Part shown: positions 21,109 to 56,371 of the stretch, in pieces
How the letters are laid out: each line of letters begins with the position of its first letter
Numbering within the stretch: position 1 is the stretch's first letter
From: Balamuthia mandrillaris
Lineage: Eukaryota > Discosea > Longamoebia > Balamuthiidae
Direction of reading: 5' to 3'
Length of the DNA stretch: 64,000 nucleotides
Assembly (NCBI GenBank): GCA_031835245.1
Contig: JAVKOQ010000198.1
Span: forward strand, 32,677 to 96,676
Position numbers and translations under genes: made by a program
The notes under the pieces: generated by a model
Database searches by the model: none
Told to the model about the DNA's origin: nothing
The model's input: only the letters and a program-made list of their open reading frames with translations

Positions 21109-23859
21109 TCATTGCAAAGGCGAGGCCGCGATCTGCACCTGCAGCACCGCCCTGCAGGTCTCGTGAAAGAGGGTGTGCACCTCCACGAACAGCTGGTAGA
21201 CCACCTCGTAGGTGGCCCCCTCCTCGGTGAAGGTGGGCGGCACGTCCTCCGGCACCTTGAACTGCACGATCCCGTCCCAGTGGCTGTGCTTCTTGACGGG
21301 GAAGCCGTTGGGCTTGGCCTCCTGGCTGCTCACGTCCACCTCGCTCTTGTCCTCCACCTTCTTCTTCTTGCCGCGGAAGGAGAAGTTGGTGGCCACCTTG
21401 CGGAGGGTCATGTGCAGCTTGGTGAGCTTCTTGCCGGTGTCGTTCTTGATGACGACGTGCAGGGTCATGGCGGTGCCGGGCACCAGGGTGGAGTACTGCG
21501 GGGAGGCCACCATCTTGAGCTCCTTGGAGGAGCCGAAGAAGGCCTTCTTGGCCTTGGCCTTTTGGGCGTAGGGCATCTCCTCGTCCTGCGCCATCATCAG
21601 GAAGGGAGAAGAGGAAGGAGGAGCAGGAGGGACAACGCCGCTGCCTTGCGAGGAGGATAGAGAGGACAGCGAAGAGGAGAGCGGGGAGGAGGGTGTTTCC
21701 TCCGCTCCTTTTGCTTGTGCGTTCGCGTCCGGGTCATCATCCGAAGGTTCGTCTTTGTCGCTTTCCTCTTGCACGTCGTCTTCCTCCTCGTCCTCTTCCT
21801 CTCCCTTTGTCTTCGTTTCATGGCTTGGAGTGGCGGTGGAGCTGCTCTCCTCCTGTTGGTGTTGTTTGCCAAGTTTTAACACACAAACACAACAACCAAC
21901 GCAGAAAGATACAACCGGAACACGAACCTGCTGCAAGTAAACCTGTGGACTCTTTTCCAGAGATTCCATAAAGGCTTCGCTCTCAAGCATGGCTTCGAGG
22001 AAGATGCTCGTCGAGTATCTGTGCCGGGTCAGCCTCTTGGTGTCCGTGGTTTCCTCCACCATCGCCAAGAACAGCTCCGCCTTCACGAGCTCCCTCTGCC
22101 TCTCCTCTTCCAGGTTCTTTCTTCGTTCCTCTTCGGTCAGAGGCGTTGCCACAGTGTCATCCGACATCCACAAGGCCAAAGCTTGGTCTATGCGTTTCTT
22201 CTTTTCTTTGGCACCTTCTCTGGGAGGGTGCTCATCGAAGGAATGTCGATCCTTGGCTTGTTCTTCCTCGTTGATGGCTCCTTCTTGCTGTTCTTCATCT
22301 TGTTCTTCTCCTTCTTCGGTTTCATTGTGCTCACTGTCATCATCCGAGGAGCTACTGTCGTCTGCGTCTTCTTGCTTTTCATTCTCCTCTTCGTCTGTAT
22401 CGCTATCTGTTGTGCCTGCTTGTTGTTCCTCCTCTGTTTCTTCTATTTCATCTCCTGTCTCCTCTACCTCCGCTTCTATCTCCTCCGCTTCCGCTTTGAT
22501 GGCATTATCCACTATCACCTCGACGATCGCTGCTTGAGGCTGCTCCTCGACTGGGTTTGGTTCATCTTCGATTTTGCTTTTATCTCTTTGGAATGATGGT
22601 TTCTTACGCTCTTTTTTTTTGCTCTTTTTGCTGTGGTGGCCCTTTGCTTTGTCGCCATCCTCTTTCTTTCGATGTTTAGACTTGCGGCCCTTGGTGCTGC
22701 TTGTGGTGTGGCTATCATCGCCTTTGGTTTCTTCCGCTCCTGCCAAGGCTTTCTCATCTTTTGCTTTTCTCTCCTTCTCCGCCTCCTCTTCCTTTTCTTT
22801 CCTCTCCTCGTTCTCTTTCTTCTCCTGTTCCTTCCTTTCTTTTTCTTTCTCCTCCTGCTTTGCCTTCTCCTGCTTCTCTCTCTCTTCCTTCAGCTCCATT
22901 TCTCTTTCCTTTTCCTTCTCATTTTCTTCTTTGTCTTTCTCTTCTTTCTCTGCCTTCTCCTTTCTCTCTTTCTCCGCGGTTTCCTTTTCCTTCTCCGCCT
23001 GTTTCTTCTTCTCTTTCTCGGCATTCTCCTTGCTCTCTTTCTCTTCCTTCTCTTCCCCATCTTCCTCCTCCATTTCAGCTTCCTCTTCTTCCTTTTCCTT
23101 CTCCTTTTCAGCCTGTGCTTTCTTCTCCTGCATCTTCCTCTCCTTTTCTTCCCATTCCTGCAACTTTTTCTTACGCGCAGCCTCCATTTCTAACCGCTTC
23201 CTCTCCCACTCGTTCATGGCCGCCATCCTCTCCGCCTCCTTCTCCATCAATATGCTTTGCTTGCTCCGCGACTGGCTGTTAATGTTATTGTTGCTGCTCT
23301 TATCCTCAAACGCATCTCCGTGATTAGAATGAACAGCAGAGGAGGAGGAAGCAGAAGGACCATGTGGAGTTGGTGGAGCTGAACTGGAGAGTGTGCTAGT
23401 GGAAGACGGATGTATCGAGTCGGGCATGACTTCCACATGTCCATCGATGAGCAGACTGGGAATCGTTCGTTTGTCGGGTGTTGATACTGTTATGGAATCG
23501 CCCGAAGAAGCGGAAGAAGAGGCTTGCTTTTCTTGTGCACTCTCTTTTGAAGAGGAAGATGTGGAGGAGGATGTGCTGTTTAGTCCCTGAGAACTTGCAG
23601 TTCGCTGCTTGTGATGTTTGGAATGACTTCTTCGATGTTTGGAGTCTGCACTCTTTTCATCATTGCTGCTTCTTTCAACCGAGGCGTGTTTTCCAGAGGA
23701 AGAGGCGTTTGAACGACGTTCCACATCTTTTTTGCTGCCCGAAGCGGTGGAAGCACGCCGTCGAGCAGAGGAAGTCGATTCGTTTTTTCGTTTCTCTCTT
23801 TTGGCTTCTGTGCTCTTCCTCCTCTTTTCCTCTTTCTCAGGGGAAGGGATTTCTAACAT
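21109..23859 (-). CDS. Highly charged protein with possible arrestin-like C-terminal domain
   Basis: Open from 23859 to 21109. I propose an intron at 21927-21853 (cag|gttcgt ... caacag|gag), which is 75 nt and stop-free, so an 891- or 916-residue product is possible. Residues ~1-230 are Ser/Arg/Lys-rich; ~230-420 form a Lys/Glu heptad-poor charged helix; ~420-570 are very acidic. A conserved-looking helical piece follows (RIDQALALWMSDDTVATPL). The last ~150 residues look like a beta-sandwich (VPGTAMTLHVVIKNDTGKK, then HWDGIVQFKVPEDVPPTF), reminiscent of the arrestin C domain. That assignment is from pattern only. This last part is much more GC-rich than the rest. Function unknown. Confidence 0.75.
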   Translation of the reverse strand: MLEIPSPEKEEKRRKSTEAKREKRKNESTSSARRRASTASGSKKDVERRSNASSSGKHASVERSSNDEKSADSKHRRSHSKHHKQRTASSQGLNSTSSSTSSSSKESAQEKQASSSASSGDSITVSTPDKRTIPSLLIDGHVEVMPDSIHPSSTSTLSSSAPPTPHGPSASSSSAVHSNHGDAFEDKSSNNNINSQSRSKQSILMEKEAERMAAMNEWERKRLEMEAARKKKLQEWEEKERKMQEKKAQAEKEKEKEEEEAEMEEEDGEEKEEKESKENAEKEKKKQAEKEKETAEKERKEKAEKEEKDKEENEKEKEREMELKEEREKQEKAKQEEKEKERKEQEKKENEERKEKEEEAEKERKAKDEKALAGAEETKGDDSHTTSSTKGRKSKHRKKEDGDKAKGHHSKKSKKKERKKPSFQRDKSKIEDEPNPVEEQPQAAIVEVIVDNAIKAEAEEIEAEVEETGDEIEETEEEQQAGTTDSDTDEEENEKQEDADDSSSSDDDSEHNETEEGEEQDEEQQEGAINEEEQAKDRHSFDEHPPREGAKEKKKRIDQALALWMSDDTVATPLTEEERRKNLEEERQRELVKAELFLAMVEETTDTKRLTRHRYSTSIFLEAMLESEAFMESLEKSPQVYLQQVRVPVVSFCVGCCVCVLKLGKQHQQEESSSTATPSHETKTKGEEEDEEEDDVQEESDKDEPSDDDPDANAQAKGAEETPSSPLSSSLSSLSSSQGSGVVPPAPPSSSPFLMMAQDEEMPYAQKAKAKKAFFGSSKELKMVASPQYSTLVPGTAMTLHVVIKNDTGKKLTKLHMTLRKVATNFSFRGKKKKVEDKSEVDVSSQEAKPNGFPVKKHSHWDGIVQFKVPEDVPPTFTEEGATYEVVYQLFVEVHTLFHETCRAVLQVQIAASPLQ

Positions 23860-25863: not shown

Positions 25864-26245
25864 TCCCTCGGTAGGCCCTCCTCTCCGCGCAGGTGCACTC
25901 CTTTCTTCTTTCTTCTTGGTTTCAATTTACTGTCGACTATGTCGGCAAAAATCATGTTTCGTTCACTGATCCAGCACTAATTTACAACAAGTTGTGCTCG
26001 CTCGAAATATATATATATTTCGTCGACCAAAACCACGTCGACATGGAAATCACTCTCGGGAGGACTAGCTCGAGGCGACGAGTGCCTTGGGCTTTGCTGT
26101 GCATTACATTCATGACGTCACGAAATTTTAAAGTATTTTCATGACGTCATGGAATTATTCCTACTAGTTTTGGCGGGAAACAGCGTTGCGGCAAGCAACA
26201 GCAGGAGGGGGTGGAGGGCGCCTGTTTTGGGCCTTGGCAGAAAAA
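25864..26245. promoter_or_regulatory. Divergent promoter bL17m / WD-repeat gene
   Basis: 382 bp. It contains GTCGAC at 25932-25937, 26022-26027 and 26037-26042, a perfect 20-bp palindrome at 26003-26022 (CGAAATATATATATATTTCG), and two full CRE palindromes TGACGTCA at 26113-26120 and 26142-26149. No coding sequence seen. Confidence 0.6.
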
Positions 26246-28183
26246 ATGAAAGCAAGGCGGGGGCCGCGGCGGCAGGAGAGGAAAGCTGAAGGCTTGCCCA
26301 TCCTCCAAGCGGAACGAGCTGGCGAAAATGAGTGCAAGGGCAGCATTGAAGCAGCACCACAAAACGTCTACCACCCGGCAGAAGAAGAGGAAGGAGAAGG
26401 AAAGAAAGAGGACGAGGACGAGGATGAAGCTGCATTGTTTTATTTCACTGAGGCTGCTTTCGAAGAAGCGACCACGAGCTCACTGACTCAGGAAGGCGGA
26501 GGAGAAGAAGAAGACGAAGATACGTTTCAGTTCCGTGACCCGGTAGCTGTTGCGGAAGTAGCTGGGCCTCAGGAACTGGGGGCAATCGAACCTGGAGTGA
26601 CGGAGGAGAAGGTCGATGATAGCTCTGAGGGAGCAACTAACGCTAGCACTCCAACCGCAAAAAAAGAAACAAAAAGGAAGAAAAAGAAACGGAACGAAGG
26701 ACGGGCCTTGTGGAGCGAGGTTCAAAAACGGTTCGAACCAAAAGTCCAAACGAGACCACACTATTACCTTGCCTCATCCAAGAAAAAGAACGAAAGCGAA
26801 GACGAAGAAGAAGAAAAAGACACAAAGGGCCAACAAGAAGAACTGGAGGAAGAACAAGAGCAACATGATAGTGCTGAAGAACACGAAGAGGAAGAACAAG
26901 AACAAGAAGATGTTGACGATGAAGAAGAGAAAGAACATGAATCGGAGGAAGAGAGTGAATATGTTTCTATAGTAGATGAGGATCTCTCAGAAAACTACAA
27001 GCTTCATCGCATGTTGCGTTGCCACCTCCGTGAAGGAGCCGCAGAGGAGAACATCCACATCAACGCGTGCACCTTTCATCCAACACGTCCCGAGATATGC
27101 GCCACCGCAGCAGCGGAATGCATCTGCATTCTTGATTGCAAGAACGGCACTTTACTCAAACGCTACACTCATCCAGTCATCAACTCTCAACGGCATCAAA
27201 GAACAAAGAACCTCTTCTCCTTGGCGTGGACAGTTTTGGAGGATGGTACAGATATTCTGGCGGCTGGTGGCAACGCTCGCGAAATACTTCTCATCGACCT
27301 CTCTCAAAACCTCGTCTACGACATTCTTCAACATCAAATACAAGAACACGGAGATGAAGAGGATGAAGATAAAGAAGCAGTTGTTCGTGCGTTAGCCTTT
27401 TGTCCTGGACGCAAGACGTTGTTGGCATCGGCGTGCGGATCGGAGATTTGTTTGTGGGGCATTGGAGAAGAATCTTCTGGTAAGAACGACCTTCGAAGCA
27501 AAGCCAGGTGCCTGCTCCGTCTTCGAGATGCGAATACGAGAATTCACAGCCTTGCCTTTTGCCCGTTCAAGAGAAAGGGCGAGGTATGTCTGCTTGCTGG
27601 TGCCACCGGAAAGGCGTTTCTATGGCCCGACCTTGCTCCCTACTTAGACAAAGAGCAACTCTCTAAGAAGAAGGGCAAAGCCACAAAAGAACCCAGAAAG
27701 AATATTATAGACGTTCACTTTTCGGAGGATGCTCGTTTGGACAGCGTGGCGTGGCTCACCGTCACCAATGCAGGTTTGTATCCTCTTTTGTTTTCTGGTG
27801 CTTCGTTCTCATTGAAAACTTCGCTCCCTTTTTTTTCAGTCATTAAGTCATCGATGGACGAGGCCGTATTGGTCATGGATGTACGAAAGAAGCAGGCCAG
27901 TAGGTCCCAAGCACTGCGGCTAAACTATCCTCACAACCGGCACAAAGGTTCTTTTTGTCTCGTTCCAAAGAAACGGCTCTGGGTAGGAACCCCTGATGCA
28001 TCAGTGCTGGCCTACGATCTGCCTTTTAACGACAAACAAGAAGCTACGCATCGTCTTTGTTTGGATGATGAATGTACTTCAGCAACGTTTAGCCAGGTGG
28101 CTGCCTCTTGGGACGAGACTTTTATTGTTGGAGGAACCACCACTAACGTTATTTGCATCTGGAAGTTACACAAGGCAACTTAA
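26246..28183 (+). CDS. WD-repeat protein resembling the LRWD1/ORCA propeller
   Basis: The first in-frame Met of the open stretch is at 26186; the Met at 26246 is closer to the main coding sequence. I propose one intron, 27774-27839 (66 nt, in frame and stop-free). The N-terminal ~270 residues are acidic and Lys/Glu low complexity. A seven-bladed-type region follows: NACTFHPTRPEICATAAAEC, then ICILDCKNGTLLKRYTHP, LFSLAWTVLEDGTDILAAGG, RALAFCPGRKTLLASACGSE and ICLWGIG, ending FIVGGTTTNVICIWKLH. The order and wording (CxxILDCxxGxLLxxY, then FSxAWT...LAA.G) resemble the WD part of human LRWD1, which binds ORC and histone marks. No leucine-rich repeats are present, so orthology is uncertain. A long purine array lies in the 3' UTR. 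Confidence 0.8.
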   Translation: MKARRGPRRQERKAEGLPILQAERAGENECKGSIEAAPQNVYHPAEEEEGEGKKEDEDEDEAALFYFTEAAFEEATTSSLTQEGGGEEEDEDTFQFRDPVAVAEVAGPQELGAIEPGVTEEKVDDSSEGATNASTPTAKKETKRKKKKRNEGRALWSEVQKRFEPKVQTRPHYYLASSKKKNESEDEEEEKDTKGQQEELEEEQEQHDSAEEHEEEEQEQEDVDDEEEKEHESEEESEYVSIVDEDLSENYKLHRMLRCHLREGAAEENIHINACTFHPTRPEICATAAAECICILDCKNGTLLKRYTHPVINSQRHQRTKNLFSLAWTVLEDGTDILAAGGNAREILLIDLSQNLVYDILQHQIQEHGDEEDEDKEAVVRALAFCPGRKTLLASACGSEICLWGIGEESSGKNDLRSKARCLLRLRDANTRIHSLAFCPFKRKGEVCLLAGATGKAFLWPDLAPYLDKEQLSKKKGKATKEPRKNIIDVHFSEDARLDSVAWLTVTNAGLYPLLFSGASFSLKTSLPFFSVIKSSMDEAVLVMDVRKKQASRSQALRLNYPHNRHKGSFCLVPKKRLWVGTPDASVLAYDLPFNDKQEATHRLCLDDECTSATFSQVAASWDETFIVGGTTTNVICIWKLHKAT

Positions 28184-28496: not shown

Positions 28497-31400
28497 TTAG
28501 TAGTCATCGTCCGACTCCTCTTCTTCCGCCTTCTCTCGCGCTCGGCGCATTTCCAATTCAAGCTGCCTCTGTCGCTCCTTCTTCAAGCGCTCCTCCTCCT
28601 CTCGTTTCTTGGCAGCACTAGCCAAACGCGTTTCAGAGATGTTGGAGAGAGCCTCCTGCTTGGTGCCCACCGAGTCTATGCCGAGGTCATCCAGAATGTC
28701 CTCAAAGTCAAATTCGGCGCCTATTTGGGCGCTCTTGATTTGAGCTCGAGCAGCATCGGCCTTGCTCTTGGCGTTTCTCTTCTCTTCCAACATCTTCTTC
28801 TTGAGCAACTTAGCCTCCTCGCGTTGCTTTGTTTTCTCTTCTTTAAACTTCTGAGCTTCTTTCTCCACTTTCTCTTTTCGTCGATCCATTTCCTCCTTTC
28901 GCTTGGCCTCAAGTTCTGCCATTTTGGCCCGAAGCTTCTGTTCCTTCTCCCATTTCTTCTTCTCTAGCTCCTCTTTCTTCTTTTCCAGCTCCTCTCTTCT
29001 CTTGGCCTCAGCAGCTTCTTTCTTGGCCTTGAGAAGAGCCAGTTTTTCTTGCTTCTTTCTGAACTTCTCTTCCTTCTTCTTCTCCTCTTCCTCGCGAAGC
29101 TGCTCCAACAGCTTCTTTCGTTCCTCCTTTTGAAGCTTACGTTTCTCCTCGTATTCTTTTTGCTGTTGTTGCAGTTCACGCCATTTCTCCTCTTCCTTGG
29201 CCTCTTGCTCAGCCCGCCATTTCTCAAGCTCCTCTTTTCTCCGTTCTTTGCGCGCCCTGTCTTCCCGTTCTCTTTCCTTGATCTCTCTCATAGCTCGTTC
29301 CTTGCGCTCCTCCTCTTCGCGTTCTCGTTGCTCTTTGAGGCGTTCCAGTCTTTCGGCCTGCTTGCGTTTGCGCTCTACCTCCCATCTTATCCTTTCTTCC
29401 TTCTCGCGGAGGTAGGCCTCTTCCTTCTCTTTTTCTCTGCGCTCGCGCGTTTCCTCCAATTCCTCTTGTCGTCTCCTTCTCGCCTCCTCTCTTCTTCTTT
29501 CAAACTCTTTTTGTTCTTCTCTCTCACGCCGGTATTGCTCTTCCTTCTCCTGCTCCTCCTGTTCTCTAAGCTGCTGGATAAGAGCCTTTCTTCGTTCCTT
29601 TCTCTCCGCTGCTTCCTCGTTGGCCTGTCGGATTTCGTCCATTCTCCTTTGTCTTTCTTCCTCCTCCTTTTGCTCCTGAGCAAGACGCACTTGCTCGATG
29701 TGACGTCGGTAGGCCTCCTTCTTTTCTCCTTCCAACTGTCGCAGCTTGGCCTGTTGCTTCCTGAACTTCTCCTCCTTCTTTCTTTCTTCTTCCTCTCTCT
29801 TCTGTTCTATCTCCTGCCTTCGCCTTTCCATATAAACCTTCTTCTCCTCCTCCAATCTCTTTCGCTCCTGTCGCTCACGCTCGTACTGCTCTTCCTTGAG
29901 CCGTTCTTGCTCGGTCTTAAGTTTCTCTATTTCCTCCTGTCGCTTCTTCCTTACCTCTGCCTTGCGCTCTTCCTCCTGCTTGAGCTCTGCCTGTTTCTGT
30001 TTCCATTCCTCTTCCTTCTTGCGCTCTTCCTCTTCTCGTATCTTCTCCAGCTCTTGCTTCCTCTTCTCTCTTCTTTGCTCAAGCTCTTTTTCTTGTTCCT
30101 TGAGCTCTTGCATTTTGCGCGCCCTTTCTTCTTCCTCCTCTTTCTCTCTGGCTTGGCGCACCTCTTCCAGATGTTTTTTGTAGGCCTCTCTCTTCTCGCC
30201 TTCTAATTTTCTCAGCTTCTCCTTCTGCTTCCTGAATTTTTCTTCCTTCTTTCTTTCCTCCTCTTCTCTCTTCTCCTCGATTTCTTGCCTTCGTCGTGCC
30301 ATGTAAGCCTTGCGCTCGTCTTCAAGCCTCTTTCTCTCCTGGCGTTCTCGCTCGTATTGTTCTTCTTTGAGACGCTCTTGCTCTTCGTGCAGCCTTTCAA
30401 TCTCAAGCTCGCGCTTGCGGCGTTGCTCTGCCTTTTGCTGCTCCAATTCTCTCAACTCCTCTTGTTTTCTCCTCCATTCTTCTTCCTTGCGCTTTTCTTC
30501 CTCCTCTTTGATTCTTTGTAGCTCCTCCATTCGTTTTTCTCGTCGTCGCTGAGCCTCCTCCTCCTGCATTCTGATATCTTCCATCTTCCTTCTCCTCTCC
30601 TCCTCTTCCTTGCGTTCTCTATCCTCACGAACTTCCTCTAAGTGGCGAAGGTAAGCCTCCTTTTTTTCGCCTTCGAGTTTCTTGAGCTTGGCTTGTTGTT
30701 TCTTGAACTTCTCTTCCTTCTTCCTCTCCTCTTCTTCTCTCTGACGCTCGATTTCCTCCCGTCTCTTTTGCATATAAGCCTTGCGCTCCTCTTCCAGTCT
30801 CTTCCTTTCCTGACGTTCCTGTTCGTATTGTTCCTCCTTCAAGCGTTCCTCTTCTTCTCTCTTGCGCTCCAGCTCCTCTTGCCTTCGTTTACGGGCTTCG
30901 GCTTTTTGCTCCTCCAACGCCTTCAGCTCTGCTTGTTTCTGTTGCCACTCTTCTTCCTTCTTGCGCTCTTCCTCCTCTTTCAGAAGTTCAAGTTCTTTAC
31001 GGCGTTTTTCCTGACGCTGGCGCAATTCCTGTTCTTGTTGTTTGATATCTTGCATCTTTCTTGCTCTTTCTTCTTCATCTTGGCGTTCACGAGCAGCACG
31101 AACTTCTTCCAAATGTTTGCGATAAGCTTCTTTCTTCTCGCCTTCCAGCTTACGCAACTTTTCTTGTTGCTTCCTGAATTTCTCCTCCTTCTTCCTTTGC
31201 TCCTCTTCTCTCTGCCTCTCCACTTCTTCTCTGCGCTTTTGGAAGTAGGCCTTTCTTTCCTCCTCCAATCTCTGTCGCTCCCGCCTTTGCTCTTCCCATT
31301 CTTCCTCCTTTTTCCTTTCCTGCTCTTCGCGTTTGCGCTCCAGCTCTTCCTTGCGCTTCTTCCTTTGTTCCTCTTTGGCGGCTTCCCATGCCCGCAGTTC

Positions 31401-34400
31401 CTCCTGCTTAGTCTGCCATTCTCGTTCTTTCTGTCTCTCCTGTTCCTCTCGCAGGCGCTCCAACTCAACCCTTCTTTTAGCTCGTTGACGCTCCAATTCG
31501 CGTTCTTGCTCTTGCAACTCTTTCATCTTGCGCTCCCTTTCTTCCTCTTCTTTACGGTCTCTCGCTCTGCGGGTTTCCTCTAAGTGGCGTTCGTAGGCCT
31601 CTCGCTTAGCACCCTCCAGCTCTCGCAGCTTGGCTTGCTGTTTCTTGAACTTCTCTTCCTTCTTCCTTTCCTCCTCTTCTCTCTTGCGCTCGATTTCCTC
31701 CCGTCTCTTTTGCATGTACGCTTGTCTTTCTTCCTCCAGTTGTTTTCTCTCCTCGCGTTCGCGTTCATATTGCTCCTCCTTCAACCGTTCCTTCTCTGCT
31801 CTCAGTCTATCGAGCTCCTCCATTCTCTTCTGGCGCACTTCCGCTTTTTGTTCTTCCAGCATTTGCTGCTCTGCTTGTTTCATCTTCCATTCCAGCTCTT
31901 TCTGGCGTTCCTGCTCCTCCTTGAGTCGCTCAAGCTCCTTTTGCCTTCTCTCCTTCTGTGCTTGCTTCTCTTCCTCCAGCTGCTTAAGCTCTTCCATGCG
32001 TCGGCGGCGTTGTTCTTCCTCCTCTTGCTCTTGCTTCTTCTTGATTTCTTCCAGGTGTTGGCGGTAGGCTTCCTTCCTCTCTCCATCCAATCTCTTCAAC
32101 TTCTCCTGCTTCTTCCGCCATTTTTCTTCCTTCTGTCTTTGTTCCTCCTCTCTTTGCTTTTCGATCTCTTCTCTTCTTCTCCTTGCTCTTTCCTCTTTCT
32201 CCGCTTCCAACAACTTCCTCTCTTCTTGTTCTCGCCTGTATTGCTCTTCCTTTTCCTGTTCGCGTTGCTCTCTCAAACGTTCCAATTCCACCTCTCGTCT
32301 GCGTCTTGCTGCCTCTTTCTGCTCTTCCAATTCTCTTTCCTCTTCTTGTTTCATCTTCCATTCCAGCTCCTTTCTCGCTTCTTGCTCCTCTTTGAATTTT
32401 TCCAACTCCTTCTTTCTCCTCTCCTGCATGGCCTTTCTTTCCTCTGCCTCTTGCTTCAGTTCCCGCATTCTGCGCTGACGCTCCTCTTCCTCTTCCTTCT
32501 CTCTTGCAGCTCTTACTTCATCCAAGTGTCTTTGGTAGGCTGCTTTCTGCTCACCTTCGAGACGCTTCAGCTTCTCTTGTTTCTTGCGCCACTTTTCCTC
32601 CTTGATTCTCTCCTCCTCTTCCCTTTTCTTCTCCAGCTCGTCTCTGCGCCGCTTCATTCTTTCTAATTTCTCCTCTTCCAAAAGCCTCTTCTCTTCTTGT
32701 TCGCGGCGGAAACGTTCTTCCTTCTCCCGTTCCCTCTTTTCCCGCAAATGCTCCAGTTCTTCCTGTCTTCTTCTGCGAGTCAGCTCTTGTTGCTCCTCTA
32801 TTTGCCGGAGCTCTTCCTGCTTGGCTTGCCATTCCAGCTCCTTTCTTCTTTCTTGCTCTGCTTTGAATTTTTCCATTTCTTCCTTTCTCCTCTCTGCAAT
32901 TCTGCGTTTTTCTTCTTCCTCTTGCTTCAGCTCTTCCATCCTTCGCCTGCGCTCTTCCTCTTCATCCTTTTCTCTCGTGGCTCTAACCTTCTCCAAGTGT
33001 TGTTGATAGGCCTGCTTCTTTTCTCCCTCGAGTTTCTTGAGCTTCTCTTGTTTTCTTTGCCATTTTTCCTCCTTTCTTCGTTGTTCCTCCTCTCTCCTCC
33101 TATCATTCTCAAGGCGCCGGAGTCGCTGTCGTTCTAATTTTTCTTCCTCCAACAATCTCCTTTCCTCCTGCTCTGCACGGAATCTCTCTTCCTTCTCCCT
33201 TTCCCGCTCCTCTCTGATTCGCTCCAACTCCTCCTGTCTTTTACGTTTGGTAAGTTCGCGAGCTTCCTCCAATTCCTTCTTTTCAGCAAGCTGCAATTGC
33301 CACTCGATTTCCTTTTGTTTCTCCTGTTCCTCCCTAAACTTCTCCAATTCCTGTCGTCTCCTCTCTCTTATCGCTTCTCTTTCTTCCTCCTCCTGTTGGA
33401 GTTCCTCCATTCGTTGTTTTCGGATCTCAGCCTCTTCGCGCTCTCTCTTCATCCTAACATCTTCCAGATGGCGTTGATAGGCCTCCTTCTTGGCGCCCTC
33501 CAACTTCTTCAACTTCTCTTGTTTCTTCTTGAACTCCTCATCCTTTCGTTTTTGCTCTTCTTCTCGCTGCTTCTCCAGCTCCTCCCGTCGGCGGCGAAGG
33601 CGTTCCAGCTTTTCCTCTTCTAGCAATCTCTTCTCTTCCTGTTCGCGTCGGAACCGCTCTTCTTTTTCTCTTTCACGTTCATCACGAAGACGCTCTAGCT
33701 CTTGTTGTCGCTTGGTGCGACTGGCTTCCTTCTTTTCTTCTAAGGCCTGCATTTCAGCATGTTTGAGCTTCCATTCGAGTTCCTTTTGTTTGGCTTGCTC
33801 TTCTCTGAACTTTTCAACCTCTTCCCTTCTTCTCTGTCTCATGTTCTCCCGCTCTTCTTCCTCCTTTTGCAGCTCGTCCATCTTGCGCTGTCTCTCTTCT
33901 TCCTTCTCCTTTTCACGCTTAGCACGGGCTTCTTCCAAGTGCTGTCTGTAGGCCTCCTTCTTTTCGCCTTCCAAGCGCTTCAGTTTGTCCTGTTTCTTTC
34001 TCCACTTGGCTTCCTTCTGCCTTTCCTCCTCTTCTCGCTGCCTCTCAATTTCCTCCCTGCGGCGCCTCATCCTGTCCAATCTTTGCTCTTCCAGCATGCG
34101 GATCTCTTCCTGCTCCATTCGGAAGCGCTCCTCCCTTTCCCGCTCTCTATCCGCACGAAGCTTTTCAAGTTCCTTTTGCCTGCGCTCCCGCCTTTGCTCC
34201 TTCATCTCCTCCAACTTTCTGGCCTCCTCTGCTTGTTGTCTCCATTTTTCCTCGTTTTGTCGTTCCTGTTCCTCGCGAATTCGCTGAAGCTCTTGCTGTC
34301 GTCTCTCCTTGCGAGCCTCGCGTTCCTCTTCCTGCTTACGGAGCTCTTCCATCCTTGCTCTTCTTTCTTCCTCTTCGCGAGCAGCTCTGGCTTCAGCCGT

Positions 34401-37400
34401 GCTGCGAAGATGTTGGAGATAGCGTTCACGCTTCTCATCTTCCATCTTGTTGAGCTTCTCCTGTTCCTTCCTCCAACGTTCTTCTTTTTCTCGCTCTTCC
34501 CGTTCTCGCCTCTCCTGAGCCAGGCGAAGGTGTTCTTGCCTTTTCTTTCGGGCCTCTTCCTCTAACTGACGCATTTGCTTTTGCTGCTCTCTGAATTTTT
34601 GCTCCTTCTCGCGTTCGGCTTGGAGGCGCCTTTGTTCCAACTCTTCTCTCCTCTTCTTGGCCCTCTCCGCCTTTTCTCTCTCCAGCTGCTCCTGTTCCCG
34701 CTTGGCTTGCTCGTATTCCTTCAACTTGGCTTGCTCTCTTTCTTCGCGGATGCGTGCAAGCTCAGCTTCGCGGCGCTTGCGGAAGGCTTCCTTGTCCTCA
34801 TCTACTTTGCGTTGCATGGCCTGCTTTTCTCTCCACTCCAACTCCTTTTCCTTTTCTCTTTGTTCCTTGATGCGCTGCAACTCCAGTTTCCTGCGTTCCA
34901 ACATGGCCTGCCTTTCTTCCTCGATCTTCTTTCTCTCTTCCTGCTCCTCCAGCCACTTAAGCTCTTTCTGGCGTTCTCGTTCTTCCTTAATGCGCTCTAG
35001 TTCAAGCCTACGAGCTGCTTCTTTAGCTTTGTGACGTTCTTCCTCCGCCTTCAGCTCAGCCATTCTTCTCTGTCTCTCCTCCTCTTCTTGTTGTTCCTGC
35101 TTCTTCTTTACCTCCTCCAAATGCTTGCGGTAGGCTTCCTTCTTCTCTCCTTCTAAGCGTTTGAGCTTCTCCTGCTTCTTCAGCCACTTGAGTTCTTTTT
35201 GTCTGCGTTCTTCCTCGCGCTTTTTCTCGTTCTCTTCCTTTCTCTTTCTTCGCAGCTCCTCTTTCTCCTGTTCATAGCGTCGTCTCTCTTCTTGCTCTGC
35301 AAGGAACTGCTCCTCCTTTCTATTCTCTTCCTCCTCGCGAATGCGACGCAGTTCTTCTTGGCGACGCAGCTTGGCAGCAAGTTTTTCCTCCTCGTATTTC
35401 TTCTGCTCCTCTTGCTCTCGCAGCCATCTCTCCATCTTCTGCTTTTCCTGTTCTTCTTTCCAGATTTCTAGCTCGCGTTGTCTGCGTTGATTACGTGCCT
35501 CACGCTCCTCTTCTTCCCTACGCATCTCCTGCATACGTTTGTCTCTCTCTTCGGCTTCTTTGCGCTCCTGCTCGGCTCGCACCTCTTCAAGATGTCTACG
35601 ATAGGCCTCCTTCTTCTCGCCTTCCAAGCGGTTCAATTTTTCTTGCTGCCTCTTCCACTTTTCTTCTTTTTCTCTCTCTTTCTCGGCCCTTTCTCTTTCG
35701 ATGGCTTCCTGCCGGCGCTGTCTGAGTTTGGCCTTTTCCTGTTCTTGTTTACGCTTCTCTTCTTGTTCCCTCTTATACTCCTCTATCTTTCGTTTCTCCT
35801 CCTCTTGTCTTTTCTTCTCGAGCTCTTCCTGACGGCGCTTTCTACGTTCCACTTTTTCTTTCTCCCTCTGTTCCTGTGCAGCCTTTTCACGGGAGTATTG
35901 TTCCAGCTTTAACTTTTCTCTTTCCTCTCGGATCTTCTCCAATTCGGCAGCACGGCGTTTGCGGTACTCCTCTTTGGACTCTTCGAGTTTTCTTTGCTCA
36001 GCTTGTTGCTCCTTCCATTGAAGCTCCTTTTCTTTATCCCTTTCTTCTCTCCATCTCTCGAGCTCCTTCTGTCTTCTCTCTTGAGCTCTGGCGCGTGCTG
36101 CTTCGATCTTCTTTCTGTTCTCTTCGGCAATGCGGTACTTTTCTTCCTCCTTCCGTCTCTGTTCCTCCTTGAATTTCTCCAGTTCCTTTTGGCGCTTTTC
36201 TGCTCTCTTTTTGGCGGCCTCTTCCTCCTCTTTCAGCTCCTCCATGCGACGCTTTCGTTCCTCTTCCTCTTGTTGCTCCTGCTTTTTCCTAATTTCATCC
36301 AAATGCTTTTGGTAGGCCGCTTTCTTGTCACCCTCCAAACGAGCCAGCTTCTCCTGCTTCTTCCTCCACTTCTCCTCTTTCCTCCTCTGTTCTTCTTCTC
36401 TGGCTCGGTCTATTTCCTCCTTTCTTCTTCTCAATCTCTCTTCCTTTTCCTGGTCCCTCATCGCCTTTTCGGCCTGCTCTCTCATAAATTGTCTCTCCTT
36501 TTCTCGTTGTTCTTCCTCTCTCTTCCTTTCCAGCTCTTCCAAGCGTCGCTTCTTGCGTTCTATTTTCTCTTCCTCGGCAATCCTGGAAAGCTCTTGCTCG
36601 AGGCGGAAGCGCTCCTCTGCTTGTCTTTCCTGCTCTTCGCGCCAGCGCTCCAGCTCATCCTGTCGTCTTCGTTTGGCTTCCTGTTTTTGTCTCTCATATT
36701 CGCGTCTTTCTTCTTCGGCCTTCCTTATCTCCTCTTCCTTCTGTCGTTCCTGTTCAAGGCGCCATTCCTCCAGCTCGCGCTCTCTCCTCTCTTTTTTGGC
36801 TTGACGTTCTTCTTCTTCTTGCTTGAGCTCTTCCATTCTACGCAACCTTTCCTCCTCCTCTTCCTTCTCTTTCTTCGCCCTCAGTTCGTCCAAACGCTTC
36901 TGTTCTCGTTCCTTCTTCTCGCCCTCCAACTTGTTGATTTCCTCCTGCATACGCTTGAACTCCCCTTCTTTCTCTTGTTGCTCTCTCTCGCGCTTTCTAT
37001 CTAACTCCTCTCTTCTCTTTTGGCGCAGTTCCTCTTTGCGTCTTTCCAATTCGATACGCTCCTGTTGTTCGCGAAGGAACTGCTCTTCTTTCTTCGCTGC
37101 TTCTTCTTCGCGTTTTTTCTCCAGTTCCTCCATCCTCTTTCTGCGCTTCTCCTTTTCATATTCCTCCAGTTCGCGCCTTTCTTGCTGCTGCCTCACGAAC
37201 TCAAGCTCTTTTGCCTTTTCTTGCTTGGCACGCCATTCCTCCACTTCTACTCTTCTCCTTTCCTGTCTAGCCTGTTGCTGTTCCTCCTCCTTGGCCCTTT
37301 CCTCAGCCTCTCGCTTGTACTCTTCCTCCTTCTTCAGTTCCTGTTCCCTACGCCAAGTCTCCAAAGCTTGCTTCCTCTTATCCGCGAGAGCCGCACGTTT

Positions 37401-40103
37401 GTCTTCCTCTCTCTTGAGTTCCTCCATGCGGCGCATTCTCTCTTGTTCTTCCTCCTTTTCCCTTTGCTTCCTTGCCTCTTCTAAGTGTTTGCGATAGGCT
37501 TCCTTCTTTTCGCCTTCCAGCGCCTTCAGCTTTTCTTGCTTCAACAACCATTCGGCTTCCTTTTCACGCTGGTCTTGCTCTCGTTTCCTTTCGATTTCTT
37601 CGCGGCGCTTCTGAGCACGCTCCGCCTTCTCCTCATCGATTCGCTTCAAGCGCTCCTGTTCTTGCTTGAACTGTCGCTCTTTCTCGGCTTCGCGTTCCTC
37701 TCGCAATCTTTGGATTTCTTCTCTTCGTCTCTCGCGTCTTTCTTCTGCTTCCTGTTCCAGTCGCAGACGCTCTTCTTGCAATCGGCGAAACTCTTCTTCT
37801 TTCTGTCGTTCTTGTTCAGCACGCCACCTCTCAACTTGTTCCTGTCTGCGCCTTCGAAATTCTTCCTTGGATTCGTTCTCTTTTCTGAGCTCATCCATCT
37901 TTCTGCGGTACTCCTCCTCCTTCTCGCGCTCCTTTTGCTCTTTCCATTTCTGCAACTCCTGCTCCCTACGCTTGCGGCGAGCCTCTCTTTCTTTCTCTTC
38001 TTGCCTTCTCTCGTCTTCCGCACGACGAAACTCTTCCTCCTTCTTCCTTTGTTGCTCCTCTTTGAATCTCTCCAATTCTCTCTTCCTTTGCTCTGCGGCA
38101 CGTTGACTAGCTTCTTCCTCTTGTTTCAACTCTTGCATGCGCCTCATCATTTCTTGCTCCTTTTCTTTCTCTCGCTCGCGGCGAACTCTTTCCAGGTGTT
38201 GAATATACGCCTCTCGTCGTGCTCCTTCCAATTCTTTGAGCTTCTCCTGCTTGCGCTTCCAAAGCTCTTCCTTGATACGCTCCTCGGCCTCTCTGCGTCT
38301 TTCGATCTCCTCTTTGCGTCTCTTCCGTCTTTCCTCCTTTTGAGCCTCTAGCGCCTTTTCCTCTTCCATCTTTCGGATGAACTCTGCCTCTTTTTCTTTC
38401 TCCTCCAATTCTCTCCTCTTTTGCAATTCCTCCTGGCGCTTCTTTTGTAGGTCATTCTTGCGATCCTCCCACTTGCGCGCCTCCTCCTGCTGTTGCCTAA
38501 ATTCTTCTTCCTTTCTCTTCTCTTGTTCCGCTTTCCACTTCTCGATCTCCTTTTGCCTACGTTGGCGGTATTGTTCCTTCGTCTCGTTTTCTTTACGAAT
38601 CTGCTCTATTCTGGCTTTATACTCCTCCTCCTTCTCTTGTTCCTTTTGAGCTTTCCACCTTTCCAAATCAGCTTCTCTTCTCTGACGCCTGGCAGTTGCT
38701 TCCTGCTCTTCGAGCTTCCTGAGCTGTTCTTCACGCTTGTACTCCTCTTCTTTGCGCCTGGCTTGTTGTTCGTGGAAAGCAGCGAGCTCCTTCTTCCTTC
38801 TCTCCTCTCGTTCCTTCGCCTGTTGTTCCTCCATTTTGAGCTCCTGCATTTTGAGCTCCATTTCCAGCTCCTTTTGCTTCTGCCTTTCCTCTCGCACTTT
38901 TTCCAAGTGCTGCTTATAGGCTTCCTTCTTTTCGCCCTCGAGCCGCTTGAGTTTCTCTTGCTTTTTCTTCCATTCTTCTTCCTTACGCCTTTCTTCTTCC
39001 TCTCTCTGCTTCTCTAATTCTTCGCGACGTTGTCTTCTCTTTTCTGCCTTCTCCTCCTCAAGAAGGCGTTGCTCCTCTTGTTGTCGCATAAACTCCTCTT
39101 CCTTTTCGCGTTCTTGTGATTCTCTGATCCTACGAATGGCTTCGCGGTGCTGCTCCAAGAACTCCTTTCGACGCTGTTCTTCATATTCTCTTTGCTGTTT
39201 CTGTCGCAGGAACTGCTCTTCTTTCCTTTTTCTGTCTTGATCCCTGTAGCGCTCAATCTCTGCCTGCCTTCTCTTTCTATAATCTTCTTTGGACTCATCT
39301 TCCCTTTTCTTTTCCTCCTGCTCTCTCCTCCACTGCTCCAGTTTCTCCATTTCCTCTTCTTCCTTCTTCCTTTGTATCTCCTCCAACCTTCTTTGTTTCC
39401 TTTCCTTCTTCTCCTCTTCCTCTCGGAGCCTTTGTTCCTGTTCCTGTCGGAACAGTTCTTCCTTTCTCCTTTCGGCCTCCTCTCTTTCTCTGGCGATCTC
39501 CTCTCGTCTCCGCTTCCAGAAGTGCTCCCTAGACTCCTCTGCCTTCTTCTTGGCCTCCTGCTGCCTCTTGAAATCTTTGAGCTTTCTTTCTTCCTCAGCT
39601 TGCTTGAGCGCTTTCACCTCCTCTTCTCTGCGCCTCTTGCGCTCGCGCTCCTCCTCCTCTTGTCTTTTCTTCTCATCCTGCAGTTTCCTGAACTCTTCTT
39701 CCTTCTCCTTCTCTCGTTCTTCTTTCAGCCTTTGCAGCTCCACTTCCCTCCTCTTTTGTCGCTGCTGCTTCTCTGCCTCCTCCGCCTTTCTCCTCTCAGC
39801 CTCCTGCCTGTACTTCTCCTCGGCGGCGAGCTCCTTCTCTCGCTTGAGTTTCTCGAGCTCCTCCTCCCTCCTCTTCTTTCTGGCCTCCTCCTCAGCCTCT
39901 CGCTCCTTCCTCCTCTGCTCCTCCTGCAGGAACCTCTCCTCCTTCTCCTTTTCCTTCTCCTCTCGGATCTTGTCAATGTTCTCTTCCTTTCGCTGTTGAT
40001 CAGCGACGGCCTCGGCCTCCTCCAAAGCCCGAACCTCAGCCTCGAGGGCGGCTATCTCAGCCAAATAGAGCTCTTTCTCCGCATCCCAACCCTCTTCTGC
40101 CAT
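28497..40103 (-). CDS. Giant charged helical protein with nested 40/37-residue repeats (3868 aa)
   Basis: One uninterrupted 11.6-kb reading frame. After residues 1-51 the protein is built from 40-residue units such as KEKEERFLQEEQRRKEREAE..., each with an aromatic residue (W/Y/F) at position 7 and a basic KRRxEE block near position 26-31. At intervals a shorter 37-residue unit carries the signature QEKLKRLEGEKKEAYRKHLE; I count 18 clear copies plus one degenerate. Glu, Arg, Lys and Gln dominate; Pro is absent from the repeat region and Gly is almost confined to the LEG motif. This predicts a very long single alpha-helix or coiled coil, trichohyalin-like in composition. The last ~110 residues differ and contain an acidic hydrophobic motif (FDFEDILDDLGIDSVG) and end ESDDDY. 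No motor, membrane or catalytic domain seen. Function unknown; cytoskeletal or structural is a guess. Confidence 0.92.
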   Translation of the reverse strand: MAEEGWDAEKELYLAEIAALEAEVRALEEAEAVADQQRKEENIDKIREEKEKEKEERFLQEEQRRKEREAEEEARKKRREEELEKLKREKELAAEEKYRQEAERRKAEEAEKQQRQKRREVELQRLKEEREKEKEEEFRKLQDEKKRQEEEERERKRRREEEVKALKQAEEERKLKDFKRQQEAKKKAEESREHFWKRRREEIAREREEAERRKEELFRQEQEQRLREEEEKKERKQRRLEEIQRKKEEEEMEKLEQWRREQEEKKREDESKEDYRKRRQAEIERYRDQDRKRKEEQFLRQKQQREYEEQRRKEFLEQHREAIRRIRESQEREKEEEFMRQQEEQRLLEEEKAEKRRQRREELEKQREEEERRKEEEWKKKQEKLKRLEGEKKEAYKQHLEKVREERQKQKELEMELKMQELKMEEQQAKEREERRKKELAAFHEQQARRKEEEYKREEQLRKLEEQEATARRQRREADLERWKAQKEQEKEEEYKARIEQIRKENETKEQYRQRRQKEIEKWKAEQEKRKEEEFRQQQEEARKWEDRKNDLQKKRQEELQKRRELEEKEKEAEFIRKMEEEKALEAQKEERRKRRKEEIERRREAEERIKEELWKRKQEKLKELEGARREAYIQHLERVRREREKEKEQEMMRRMQELKQEEEASQRAAEQRKRELERFKEEQQRKKEEEFRRAEDERRQEEKEREARRKRREQELQKWKEQKEREKEEEYRRKMDELRKENESKEEFRRRRQEQVERWRAEQERQKEEEFRRLQEERLRLEQEAEERRERRREEIQRLREEREAEKERQFKQEQERLKRIDEEKAERAQKRREEIERKREQDQREKEAEWLLKQEKLKALEGEKKEAYRKHLEEARKQREKEEEQERMRRMEELKREEDKRAALADKRKQALETWRREQELKKEEEYKREAEERAKEEEQQQARQERRRVEVEEWRAKQEKAKELEFVRQQQERRELEEYEKEKRRKRMEELEKKREEEAAKKEEQFLREQQERIELERRKEELRQKRREELDRKREREQQEKEGEFKRMQEEINKLEGEKKEREQKRLDELRAKKEKEEEEERLRRMEELKQEEEERQAKKERRERELEEWRLEQERQKEEEIRKAEEERREYERQKQEAKRRRQDELERWREEQERQAEERFRLEQELSRIAEEEKIERKKRRLEELERKREEEQREKERQFMREQAEKAMRDQEKEERLRRRKEEIDRAREEEQRRKEEKWRKKQEKLARLEGDKKAAYQKHLDEIRKKQEQQEEEERKRRMEELKEEEEAAKKRAEKRQKELEKFKEEQRRKEEEKYRIAEENRKKIEAARARAQERRQKELERWREERDKEKELQWKEQQAEQRKLEESKEEYRKRRAAELEKIREEREKLKLEQYSREKAAQEQREKEKVERRKRRQEELEKKRQEEEKRKIEEYKREQEEKRKQEQEKAKLRQRRQEAIERERAEKEREKEEKWKRQQEKLNRLEGEKKEAYRRHLEEVRAEQERKEAEERDKRMQEMRREEEEREARNQRRQRELEIWKEEQEKQKMERWLREQEEQKKYEEEKLAAKLRRQEELRRIREEEENRKEEQFLAEQEERRRYEQEKEELRRKRKEENEKKREEERRQKELKWLKKQEKLKRLEGEKKEAYRKHLEEVKKKQEQQEEEERQRRMAELKAEEERHKAKEAARRLELERIKEERERQKELKWLEEQEERKKIEEERQAMLERRKLELQRIKEQREKEKELEWREKQAMQRKVDEDKEAFRKRREAELARIREEREQAKLKEYEQAKREQEQLEREKAERAKKRREELEQRRLQAEREKEQKFREQQKQMRQLEEEARKKRQEHLRLAQERREREEREKEERWRKEQEKLNKMEDEKRERYLQHLRSTAEARAAREEEERRARMEELRKQEEEREARKERRQQELQRIREEQERQNEEKWRQQAEEARKLEEMKEQRRERRQKELEKLRADREREREERFRMEQEEIRMLEEQRLDRMRRRREEIERQREEEERQKEAKWRKKQDKLKRLEGEKKEAYRQHLEEARAKREKEKEEERQRKMDELQKEEEERENMRQRRREEVEKFREEQAKQKELEWKLKHAEMQALEEKKEASRTKRQQELERLRDEREREKEERFRREQEEKRLLEEEKLERLRRRREELEKQREEEQKRKDEEFKKKQEKLKKLEGAKKEAYQRHLEDVRMKREREEAEIRKQRMEELQQEEEEREAIRERRRQELEKFREEQEKQKEIEWQLQLAEKKELEEARELTKRKRQEELERIREEREREKEERFRAEQEERRLLEEEKLERQRLRRLENDRRREEEQRRKEEKWQRKQEKLKKLEGEKKQAYQQHLEKVRATREKDEEEERRRRMEELKQEEEEKRRIAERRKEEMEKFKAEQERRKELEWQAKQEELRQIEEQQELTRRRRQEELEHLREKREREKEERFRREQEEKRLLEEEKLERMKRRRDELEKKREEEERIKEEKWRKKQEKLKRLEGEQKAAYQRHLDEVRAAREKEEEEERQRRMRELKQEAEERKAMQERRKKELEKFKEEQEARKELEWKMKQEEERELEEQKEAARRRREVELERLREQREQEKEEQYRREQEERKLLEAEKEERARRRREEIEKQREEEQRQKEEKWRKKQEKLKRLDGERKEAYRQHLEEIKKKQEQEEEEQRRRRMEELKQLEEEKQAQKERRQKELERLKEEQERQKELEWKMKQAEQQMLEEQKAEVRQKRMEELDRLRAEKERLKEEQYEREREERKQLEEERQAYMQKRREEIERKREEEERKKEEKFKKQQAKLRELEGAKREAYERHLEETRRARDRKEEEERERKMKELQEQERELERQRAKRRVELERLREEQERQKEREWQTKQEELRAWEAAKEEQRKKRKEELERKREEQERKKEEEWEEQRRERQRLEEERKAYFQKRREEVERQREEEQRKKEEKFRKQQEKLRKLEGEKKEAYRKHLEEVRAARERQDEEERARKMQDIKQQEQELRQRQEKRRKELELLKEEEERKKEEEWQQKQAELKALEEQKAEARKRRQEELERKREEEERLKEEQYEQERQERKRLEEERKAYMQKRREEIERQREEEERKKEEKFKKQQAKLKKLEGEKKEAYLRHLEEVREDRERKEEEERRRKMEDIRMQEEEAQRRREKRMEELQRIKEEEEKRKEEEWRRKQEELRELEQQKAEQRRKRELEIERLHEEQERLKEEQYERERQERKRLEDERKAYMARRRQEIEEKREEEERKKEEKFRKQKEKLRKLEGEKREAYKKHLEEVRQAREKEEEEERARKMQELKEQEKELEQRREKRKQELEKIREEEERKKEEEWKQKQAELKQEEERKAEVRKKRQEEIEKLKTEQERLKEEQYERERQERKRLEEEKKVYMERRRQEIEQKREEEERKKEEKFRKQQAKLRQLEGEKKEAYRRHIEQVRLAQEQKEEEERQRRMDEIRQANEEAAERKERRKALIQQLREQEEQEKEEQYRREREEQKEFERRREEARRRRQEELEETRERREKEKEEAYLREKEERIRWEVERKRKQAERLERLKEQREREEEERKERAMREIKEREREDRARKERRKEELEKWRAEQEAKEEEKWRELQQQQKEYEEKRKLQKEERKKLLEQLREEEEKKKEEKFRKKQEKLALLKAKKEAAEAKRREELEKKKEELEKKKWEKEQKLRAKMAELEAKRKEEMDRRKEKVEKEAQKFKEEKTKQREEAKLLKKKMLEEKRNAKSKADAARAQIKSAQIGAEFDFEDILDDLGIDSVGTKQEALSNISETRLASAAKKREEEERLKKERQRQLELEMRRAREKAEEEESDDDY

Positions 40104-45253: not shown

Positions 45254-45298
<45 letters not shown>

Positions 45299-45538
45299 TT
45301 ACTCTCGTCATCCATTCTCTCCTTCTCTTTATTTCTGTTGACGTTTCTCTTTTCTTTCTCTTTTCTCTTCTCATTCTCTCTCTCTCTCTCTCTCTCTGTG
45401 CCCTCAGTCCCTTCTCTCAAATAAAATAAAACAAACAAGGGAGAAGAGGCTTACTATTACACTAGCTAGCTGCGGGCGACGAGCAGCTTTCCTTCGCCAC
45501 TCATTTCGTCAGCAGTCAGGATAAGGCCGATCTCTGCC
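45021..45538. other. Divergent intergenic region with three (CT)n arrays
   Basis: 518 bp between the DENN protein and BipA. The (CT)n arrays at 45206-45231, 45260-45294 and 45375-45397 are embedded in ~300 nt of pyrimidine-rich sequence. It may include an untranslated first exon or intron of either gene; no coding sequence seen. Confidence 0.6.
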
Positions 45539-48500: not shown

Positions 48501-48807
48501 GTTACTGATGCAGACAAATACCTTCTTCCAGGTATGATTGTGGGAGAAAGTGCCAAAAAGGGGGACCTCGATGTAAATCCCGTCAAAGCGAAGCAACTCT
48601 CTAACGTGCGATCGGTGCAGAAAGAGGAGAATGTGCGCCTAACTCCTCCTCGCATTCTCAGCTTAGAGGAAGCCATAACCTATGTGCAAGGTACTTGCCC
48701 AGTGACATCGGCATGCCGTTTTTTTATTTTGCCAAAATGGTCTATTTTTCCCTCCCTAACCACTTCAATCCACATTTCCAGAGGACGAACTTGTGGAAAT
48801 AACGTAA
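45539..48807 (+). CDS. typA: BipA/TypA translational GTPase, probably mitochondrial
   Basis: Ribosome-associated elongation-factor-like GTPase. Inferred exons: 45539-45988, 46073-46138, 46218-46317, 46621-46700, 46755-46874, 46975-47053, 47131-47202, 47273-47440, 47527-48042, 48107-48201, 48269-48470, 48532-48690, 48782-48807 (or 48888). An Arg/Ser/Gly-rich ~135-residue N-terminus looks like an organelle presequence. GTPase boxes: [39 protein letters not shown]. Then [33 protein letters not shown] and SRALIGFR. The final exon reads DELVEIT then TAA, where homologues have a Pro and continue; the downstream codons still encode KHVRMRKEVLD up to TGA at 48886. See the finding on this stop. Confidence 0.93.
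46365..46553 (+). repeat. Compound TTCTTG / TTCTTCG tandem repeat in BipA intron 3
   Basis: Begins with irregular TTCTTCTTG units, passes through about ten copies of a 7-bp TTCTTCG (cgttctt) unit, then about nine copies of a 6-bp TTCTTG unit. It fills most of the 303-nt intron. Confidence 0.93.
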
Positions 48808-48888
48808 AAGCACGTAAGAATGAGGAAAGAAGTCTTGGATACTTCTCTCAGAGAACAGGCTGCCCGAAGGAAGAAAAAAGCGAACTGA

Positions 48889-49127
48889 AGAGGGTGCATC
48901 CAAGACCTCCACGCTTTGCCTACCCGAATAAACCACTGCCACAAAACAAGAATTACATCACTTTGCCCAGCCATCTCTCTGCAGGGGTGATAGATTAGGG
49001 GCTGTAGATCGTTTGCTTGTTGTTGTTTCGCTTTGTTGTAGTTCGGGAGGTTTTGGACTCGAATTGCAAATAACCAAAAAATCCGGTTGGTGGGCTGGTT
49101 GACCCGCAAGCCGAACACAAAATCTTT
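48889..49127. other. Intergenic region BipA / adenylation gene
   Basis: About 240 bp, same-strand spacing; no clear motif recognised. Confidence 0.5.
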
Positions 49128-51547: not shown

Positions 51548-51638
51548 GAAGAATTAATGTCTCCTGGATAAGCTAGCAAATCATGGACATCATTAGGGGA
51601 CCAACAGGACACACTGTTGCGCAGATTCACCGCGACCT

Positions 51639-52316: not shown

Positions 52317-52405
52317 TGAGTGTCATAGTGAAAACCGCAGTTGTATATCTTCAAAAAGAGAGACAACAATTACGTTCATTTCTGTTCTTGCCTCTTTCTC
52401 TTTGA

Positions 52406-55319: not shown

Positions 55320-55470
55320 GCTTGTTGCTGCCCTTCGTTCTTGTCTTTATGAATTCTATTATTAATGAAACGTGAACGATATTAACTCAACCGAATAAAG
55401 CTCGGGCAATGATCGGCAAAGTGTCCTAAGCAATAACACTAGTTTACACATATAAGAACGGACATGTTGC
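55320..55470. other. Short spacer between tandem membrane-protein genes
   Basis: 151 bp holding the 3' end of copy B and the promoter of copy A; AT-rich, no further motif recognised. Confidence 0.4.

Positions 55471-56327: not shown

Positions 56328-56371
<44 letters not shown>

Follow-up and report, generated by a model that had tools for sequence, protein, structure and literature searches.

Several described systems come close to the protein reported here. Tropomyosin is a long helix whose actin periods are 39 1/3 and 19 2/3 residues. Nebulin is a giant made of short helical units, of about 35 residues each and grouped in sevens, with super-repeats and landmark motifs. The rods of the trichohyalin/plectin-homology (TPH) kind are low-complexity helices of E, R, K and Q, and Sfi1 is a long repeat chain with aromatic residues. 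Giant centrin/spasmin scaffolds occur in protists, according to PMC12661445. Finally, charged single helices, the SAH (ER/K) domains, are widespread in eukaryotes (PMC5812594); a natural one typically has 40 to ~200 residues and a persistence length of ~15 nm (PMC5347031).

The gene analyzed here lies on the minus strand of the window, by which we mean the whole 64,000-nucleotide stretch of Balamuthia mandrillaris DNA that was analyzed. Its product has a mass of 500 kDa and a pI of 8.9, and consists of 31% Glu, 19% Arg, 15% Lys and 10% Gln, with 14.9% hydrophobic residues and not a single Pro or Cys. The features, in positions of the window, are as follows.

28497..40103, minus strand: the giant-protein gene, a single open frame from ATG to TAA, 3,868 amino acids
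39933..40103, minus strand: N-terminal head, residues 1-57, which the unit register does not include
38973..39932, minus strand: run of eight 40-residue units without a 37-residue unit, residues 58-377
29295..38972, minus strand: 18 blocks, residues 378-3603, each one 37-residue unit and then three to five 40-residue units
38862..38972, minus strand: first of the 18 37-residue 'S' units, with W/F1, QEKL, LEG at 11-13, Y19 and H22 L23
29295..34004, minus strand: ten consecutive 157-residue super-repeats, residues 2034-3603, aligning without gaps at 42-76% amino-acid identity
28497..29294, minus strand: C-terminal tail, residues 3604-3868, a less charged stretch AEFDFEDILDDLGIDS and then an acidic end

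The unit array thus covers residues 58-3603 (3,546 residues) and consists of 90 units, 72 of 40 residues and 18 of 37. Twelve blocks have three 40-residue units, two have four and four have five; the end of the last block at residue 3603 is a boundary that we set, and no 37-residue unit comes after it.

How does this layout compare with the systems above? With SAH domains it shares the E/R/K composition, the opposite-charge pairing at i/i+3 and i/i+4, and the predicted long helices, but here 3,546 residues stand in a 40/37 register against their typical 40 to ~200 (PMC5347031), and the protein differs further in its aromatic/hydrophobic stripe and in the conserved glycine motif that each block carries. 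With tropomyosin it would share a long helix, and its mean unit period of 39.3-39.4 residues and its spectral line at 19.68 are numerically close to the periods given above; unlike tropomyosin, the protein has no heptad line and no Pfam match (in a scan that penalizes this composition), is far longer, and alternates 40- and 37-residue units. It is like nebulin in being a giant of short units in super-repeats with a landmark motif, and differs from it in the unit lengths and, again, in having no Pfam match. The TPH rods are alike in their low-complexity E/R/K/Q helices. The Sfi1 and centrin/spasmin scaffolds are alike as long repeat chains with aromatics, but their motif is absent here. Long charged helices are a known kind of structure; what stands out is the length, the register and the 37-residue unit.

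The original prediction had derived a nested 40/37 periodicity from 18 landmark positions, and all 18 do map to one motif. The motif is an exact LEG, as had been claimed, in 16 of the 18, the other two reading MED (unit from residue 1877) and LDG (unit from residue 2662). The 17 spacings between landmarks run 237, 237, 197, 197, 237, 157 and 237 residues, followed by ten of 157. This reproduces the count of four spacings of 711 bp, two of 591 bp and eleven of 471 bp, the last with a run of ten. Every spacing is 471 + 120k bp, so that block lengths vary by whole 40-residue units, and the division of the 18 blocks into units gives the expected 37 + (40)n residues with n = 3, 4 or 5. The eight N-terminal units without a 37-residue unit are additional to that layout. 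The check proposed at the time, an identity autocorrelation of the translated protein, has peaks at lags 157 (0.441), 314, 471 and 40 (0.331), far above chance given a baseline with mean 0.177 and standard deviation 0.026 over 799 lags.

In the 40-residue consensus, position 1 is aromatic in about three quarters of the units; most of the remaining ones have Arg there, chiefly the unit that comes after a 37-residue unit. Among the well-conserved positions are Arg22 (97%), Lys37 (91%), and Glu12, Glu25 and Glu38 (88% each). The 37-residue unit is more conserved still, with Gln5, Lys7, Leu8, Leu11, Glu12, Gly13, Tyr19, His22 and Leu23 each present in 17 of 18 copies. When the two profiles are compared, the best fit has three residues absent from the shorter unit after position 21-22, with adjacent placements scoring nearly the same. 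Glycine is almost confined to the motif: 17 of the 22 glycines in the protein belong to the LEG of a 37-residue unit, and the only other one inside the array, residue 1047, is Glu in the second haplotype.

Units resemble each other by their place in the block. Across the twelve three-unit blocks, first units have a mean identity of 0.51 to each other, as opposed to 0.39 to second and 0.39 to last units, and second and last units have 0.52 and 0.56 among their own kind. We conclude that it was entire blocks that were duplicated here. Later units are harder to tell apart where a block has four or five of them; the last units of five-unit blocks, for example, have an identity of 0.38 to each other and 0.43 to the last units of three-unit blocks.

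The window belongs to contig C197 of a 64.8-Mb assembly of 775 contigs. A 27-base probe published for the Balamuthia mandrillaris RNase P gene has one exact match in this genome and another match with 2 mismatches elsewhere. The two primers of the same assay also match exactly next to the first site, over 81 bp, where PMC2612680 gives 82 bp and describes the region as species-specific. The genome is thus very probably that of this amoebozoan or of a very close relative. In the assembly, contig C123 covers the same region as a second haplotype copy. The giant gene on C123 also has 3,868 codons, with 20 amino-acid differences and no indels. None of the 20 differences lies beyond residue 1,600; the 2,268 residues that follow are identical, with 10 synonymous changes. 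For the gene as a whole dS is 0.0247 and dN 0.0022, a dN/dS of ~0.09 (50.5 synonymous changes and 20.5 others; Fisher p 2.6e-23 on rounded counts). Between the haplotypes the gene has 0 indels per 71 substitutions, and its two flanks, which are partly coding, have 72 per 491 (36 per 150 and 36 per 341 taken singly).

Among the ten 157-residue blocks (45 pairs) mean pN is 0.28 and mean pS is 1.01, where values above 1 are a by-product of the counting method and are to be taken as saturation. An alignment of 8 overlapping three-block rows spanning the ten blocks (471 columns) has no gaps at all. The claim that ten consecutive super-repeats have diverged without an indel is thus borne out. From the flank rates one would roughly expect, under neutrality, ~23 in-frame indels between two blocks that differ by one substitution per site, and because saturated blocks are gapless where so many indels would be expected, we consider selection on the length of the array a fair conclusion from these comparisons. 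The structural selection on register that had been suggested is supported in the same way by the gapless saturated blocks and by the lack of haplotype indels, together with the fact that units of 40 and 37 residues correspond to about 11 and 10 helix turns.

Can we trust the assembly of such an array? A collapsed array is unlikely, judging from the contigs: on the second haplotype contig the gene is equally long and free of indels, both contigs coming from one assembly, and the blocks are too diverged in DNA to collapse easily (mean pS ~1, and TRF reports one 471-bp row with 75% matches). That the whole gene is an assembly or annotation artefact is hardly credible, given an equal length on two haplotype contigs that carry different substitutions, an open frame throughout, the low dN/dS and, again, the divergence of the blocks. 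We have set mis-assembly aside on the second copy and the block divergence, with the note that both copies are from the same assembly.

Searches for relatives gave little. The giant protein has no match in Pfam (E up to 10) or NCBIfam (E up to 1), nor in the PDB by sequence (E 0.001) or by profile (E 10). In a protein collection, where the candidates scored are those sharing most words with the query, there was no match for the C-terminal 179 residues (E 0.001, 1,810 candidates) or for the whole protein (E 1, 2,209 candidates); the protein itself went unmatched, and the collection may omit this organism. As a control, phmmer found the other haplotype's protein with both the 179-residue and the whole-protein query, so that close relatives are not masked by composition, but distant ones could be missed. 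The TPH family PF13868 has no match to the giant protein at E up to 10, under HMMER filters that penalize composition. In the genome, TPH and radial-spoke families have no match, weak results since the control genomes were also silent, and neither do alveolin or light-harvesting families, equally weak since the controls matched only in a bacterium each; Balamuthia is not known to have a flagellum. Among the literature matches listed, none is by its title a paper on the giant protein. The statement that this layout has no named family therefore holds for Pfam, NCBIfam, the PDB and the protein collection, within the limits of tools that do poorly on composition-biased sequence. As for homologs with the same 40/37 pattern, which would have been its support, these searches found none. 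The sole relative detected is a paralog in the same genome, and it has no 37-residue unit. The giant protein, conspicuous and probably structural, thus has relatives detected in its own genome only.

The queries used to look for array loci in the genome were two segments of the giant protein, of 100 and 441 residues out of 3,868, and the paralog core; counts from them are lower bounds. They give at least one further array locus, the paralog at C46:234459-237548 on the minus strand, with 21 consecutive 40-residue units. Its strongest lags are 240, 120 and 360 residues, that is six, three and nine units. Its matches fall in the N-terminal third of the giant protein, the part made of 40-residue units only included, and the top-scoring match is to blocks that contain 37-residue units. 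The 930-residue core had no match in the protein collection at E 0.1 (8,000 candidates scored). From the two arrays we infer that the 40-residue unit is probably the more general module and the 37-residue unit an addition in the giant protein. The paralog gene is probably spliced at its 3' end. It lies ~5 kb from a frame for elongation factor 1-alpha, which as we read it lacks the insertion typical of opisthokonts, and was found at one locus, the giant gene being present on two contigs.

In terms of helix geometry, 40 residues make 11 turns at 3.636 residues per turn, 37 residues make 10 turns at 3.70, and a 157-residue block makes 43 turns at 3.651. For the hydrophobic residues of the array, the spectrum between 3.3 and 4.0 residues per turn peaks at 3.649 with a power of 86, where shuffles reach at most 8.6 (50 shuffles, every seventh period of this band) or 10.7 (20 shuffles, whole band). 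Acidic residues have the same period and lie ~186 degrees away from the hydrophobic ones at 3.651. When turns are assigned per unit (11 or 10), the central 30-degree sector of the stripe is 52% hydrophobic, 35% basic and 7% acidic, a sharp unit-locked stripe that rests on the turns we assigned; with a single fixed period of 3.6495 that sector is 28% hydrophobic, 43% basic and 18% acidic.

The hydrophobic spectrum is dominated not by the helical line but by one at 3.078 residues (power 150 vs. 86), which a simple helix face does not explain. Since a strict repeat gives lines only at its harmonics, the line at 3.649 has to be read as one of several harmonics, if a strong one. The line at 3.078 is also the strongest in the paralog, where the helical line is weak (power 16.8 vs. 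a shuffle maximum of 11.6) and where aromatic and aliphatic residues have their maxima at other periods of the 3.3-4.0 band.

A rival reading of the stripe is self-assembly. At least two copies would pair along it as a near-straight coiled coil of mixed heptads and hendecads, and would build striated fibers with a period of ~23 nm. There is indeed a hydrophobic stripe, its seam at 3.649 is near the hendecad value of 11/3, and the strict register and conserved block length are as a coiled coil would have them. But hydrophobic residues are few, at 14.9% of the protein and, according to which register is applied, 28-52% of the sector at the center of the seam, the charge patterning is of the single-helix type, and the hydrophobic power is 0.4 both at 3.5, the canonical heptad period, and at 3.667. 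We regard this pairing as unlikely, if still deserving of weight; a plain heptad coiled coil we have set aside for its lack of power at 3.5.

The charges point to single helices. Opposite charges at i/i+3 and i/i+4 are more frequent than in shuffles (z 12-16) and like charges less so (z -14 and -20), which together with the richness in E, R and K is the sequence pattern of SAH domains. Could it then be a plain charged single-helix spacer or spring, with no dedicated filament partner, its register a relic of duplication? The composition and the pairing are what such a spacer would have, helices of this sort are widespread in eukaryotes (PMC5812594), and the helical line is not the dominant one. 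A mere spacer, though, should tolerate small in-frame indels, and the blocks are gapless despite synonymous saturation; Gly13, Tyr19, His22, Leu8 and Leu11, moreover, are each conserved in 17 of 18 S units. We find the spacer distinctly improbable.

An AlphaFold model of three super-repeats (471 residues, 8 rows) has helices at 2-167, 172-318 and 329-470, with a mean pLDDT of 81.7 and a pTM of 0.22. The predicted breaks at 168-171 and 319-328 contain the second and third LEG glycines, two of the three LEG sites, and the first LEG (position 13, near the start of the fragment) remains helical. The model is a monomer, uninformative on oligomer state. A Foldseek search with it against the PDB has no match, which means little for a long helix.

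Taken together, we give a probability of roughly 55% to the giant protein being a very long helical structural rod whose stripe docks sideways on a filament or on the protein itself. At a helix rise of 0.15 nm per residue the array would form ~0.53 micrometers of helix, in segments of 157, 197 and 237 residues or ~23.6, 29.6 and 35.6 nm. In this picture charged single helices follow one another in a chain, and the LEG glycine would be a joint or a mark between them. With a persistence length of ~15 nm (PMC5347031), a free chain of 3,546 residues would be a flexible coil, and that a stripe is held over all those residues suggests a lateral partner, either a filament or the protein's own copies. 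The hydrophobic and basic stripe would then bind side-on to a straight filament or to further copies of the protein, and the 37-residue unit may be both a special site (a joint or a docking point) and a corrector of phase after three to five 40-residue units. In the amoeba cytoskeleton, which to our knowledge is little characterized in Balamuthia, the protein would act as scaffold, ruler or stiffener. With 90 units kept strictly in register along 3,546 residues, it would be an extreme test of a usable charged helix over half a micrometer. Weighing against this rod are a line at 3.078 stronger than the helical one, the weakness of the helical line in the paralog, the low pTM, and the first LEG that stays helical.

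If the rod has a filament partner, which filament might it be? Fitting the 91 unit boundaries with a straight line gives a slope of 39.358 residues (90 units), with a largest deviation of 5.1, and from the first 37-residue unit (residue 378) on, the slope is 39.335 with a largest deviation of 3.5 residues. Against a pure 40-residue lattice the boundaries drift by 27 residues either way. The mean spacing of 39.3-39.4 residues coincides with the actin period of tropomyosin, which we treat as a lead only. It is because of this coincidence that we mention a giant single-chain, single-helix actin ruler, in which each of the 90 units would span one actin subunit along a filament strand. The 40-residue (11-turn) units would overshoot the lattice slightly and the 37-residue (10-turn) units would correct it, in the fashion of leap years, so that the mean, 39.34-39.36 residues, would match the tropomyosin period and the binding stripe would be kept in phase. 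Such a protein would be an analog of tropomyosin or nebulin evolved from an unrelated charged helix and, if true, an independent invention of a filament ruler. The paralog, however, is pure 40, and any mixture of 37 and 40 must average to something in between; we hold the actin ruler to be a long shot.

That most units begin with an aromatic residue brings to mind an Sfi1-like contractile scaffold that would bind one EF-hand protein, centrin or calmodulin, per unit, and giant protist scaffolds of this kind are known (PMC12661445). But the pattern LLxxx[F/L]xxW has no strict and no relaxed match in the whole protein, IQ motifs have two loose matches and no complete one, and the position-1 aromatic is surrounded by charged residues. 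Such a scaffold is very improbable, and we have set it aside on the absence of the motifs.

As for the surroundings of the gene, a 665-residue WD40 protein (26186-28183, plus strand) adjoins it tail to tail, and its protein is identical on both haplotype contigs. Further on, at 21109-23859 on the minus strand, is a frame of 916 residues with a C-terminal arrestin domain and with low-complexity tandem repeats inside it at 22783-23112. Ordinary neighbors are frames matching queuine tRNA-ribosyltransferase (10782-11492, plus), an AMP-binding enzyme (49128-50474, plus), exportin-5 (60215-61012, plus) and Hsp90 (63075-63992, minus). Finally, positions 45296-57146 of the window align to C123 only in pieces at ~83-92%, with 96.6% before and 99.8% after, and constitute a haplotype block of high divergence.
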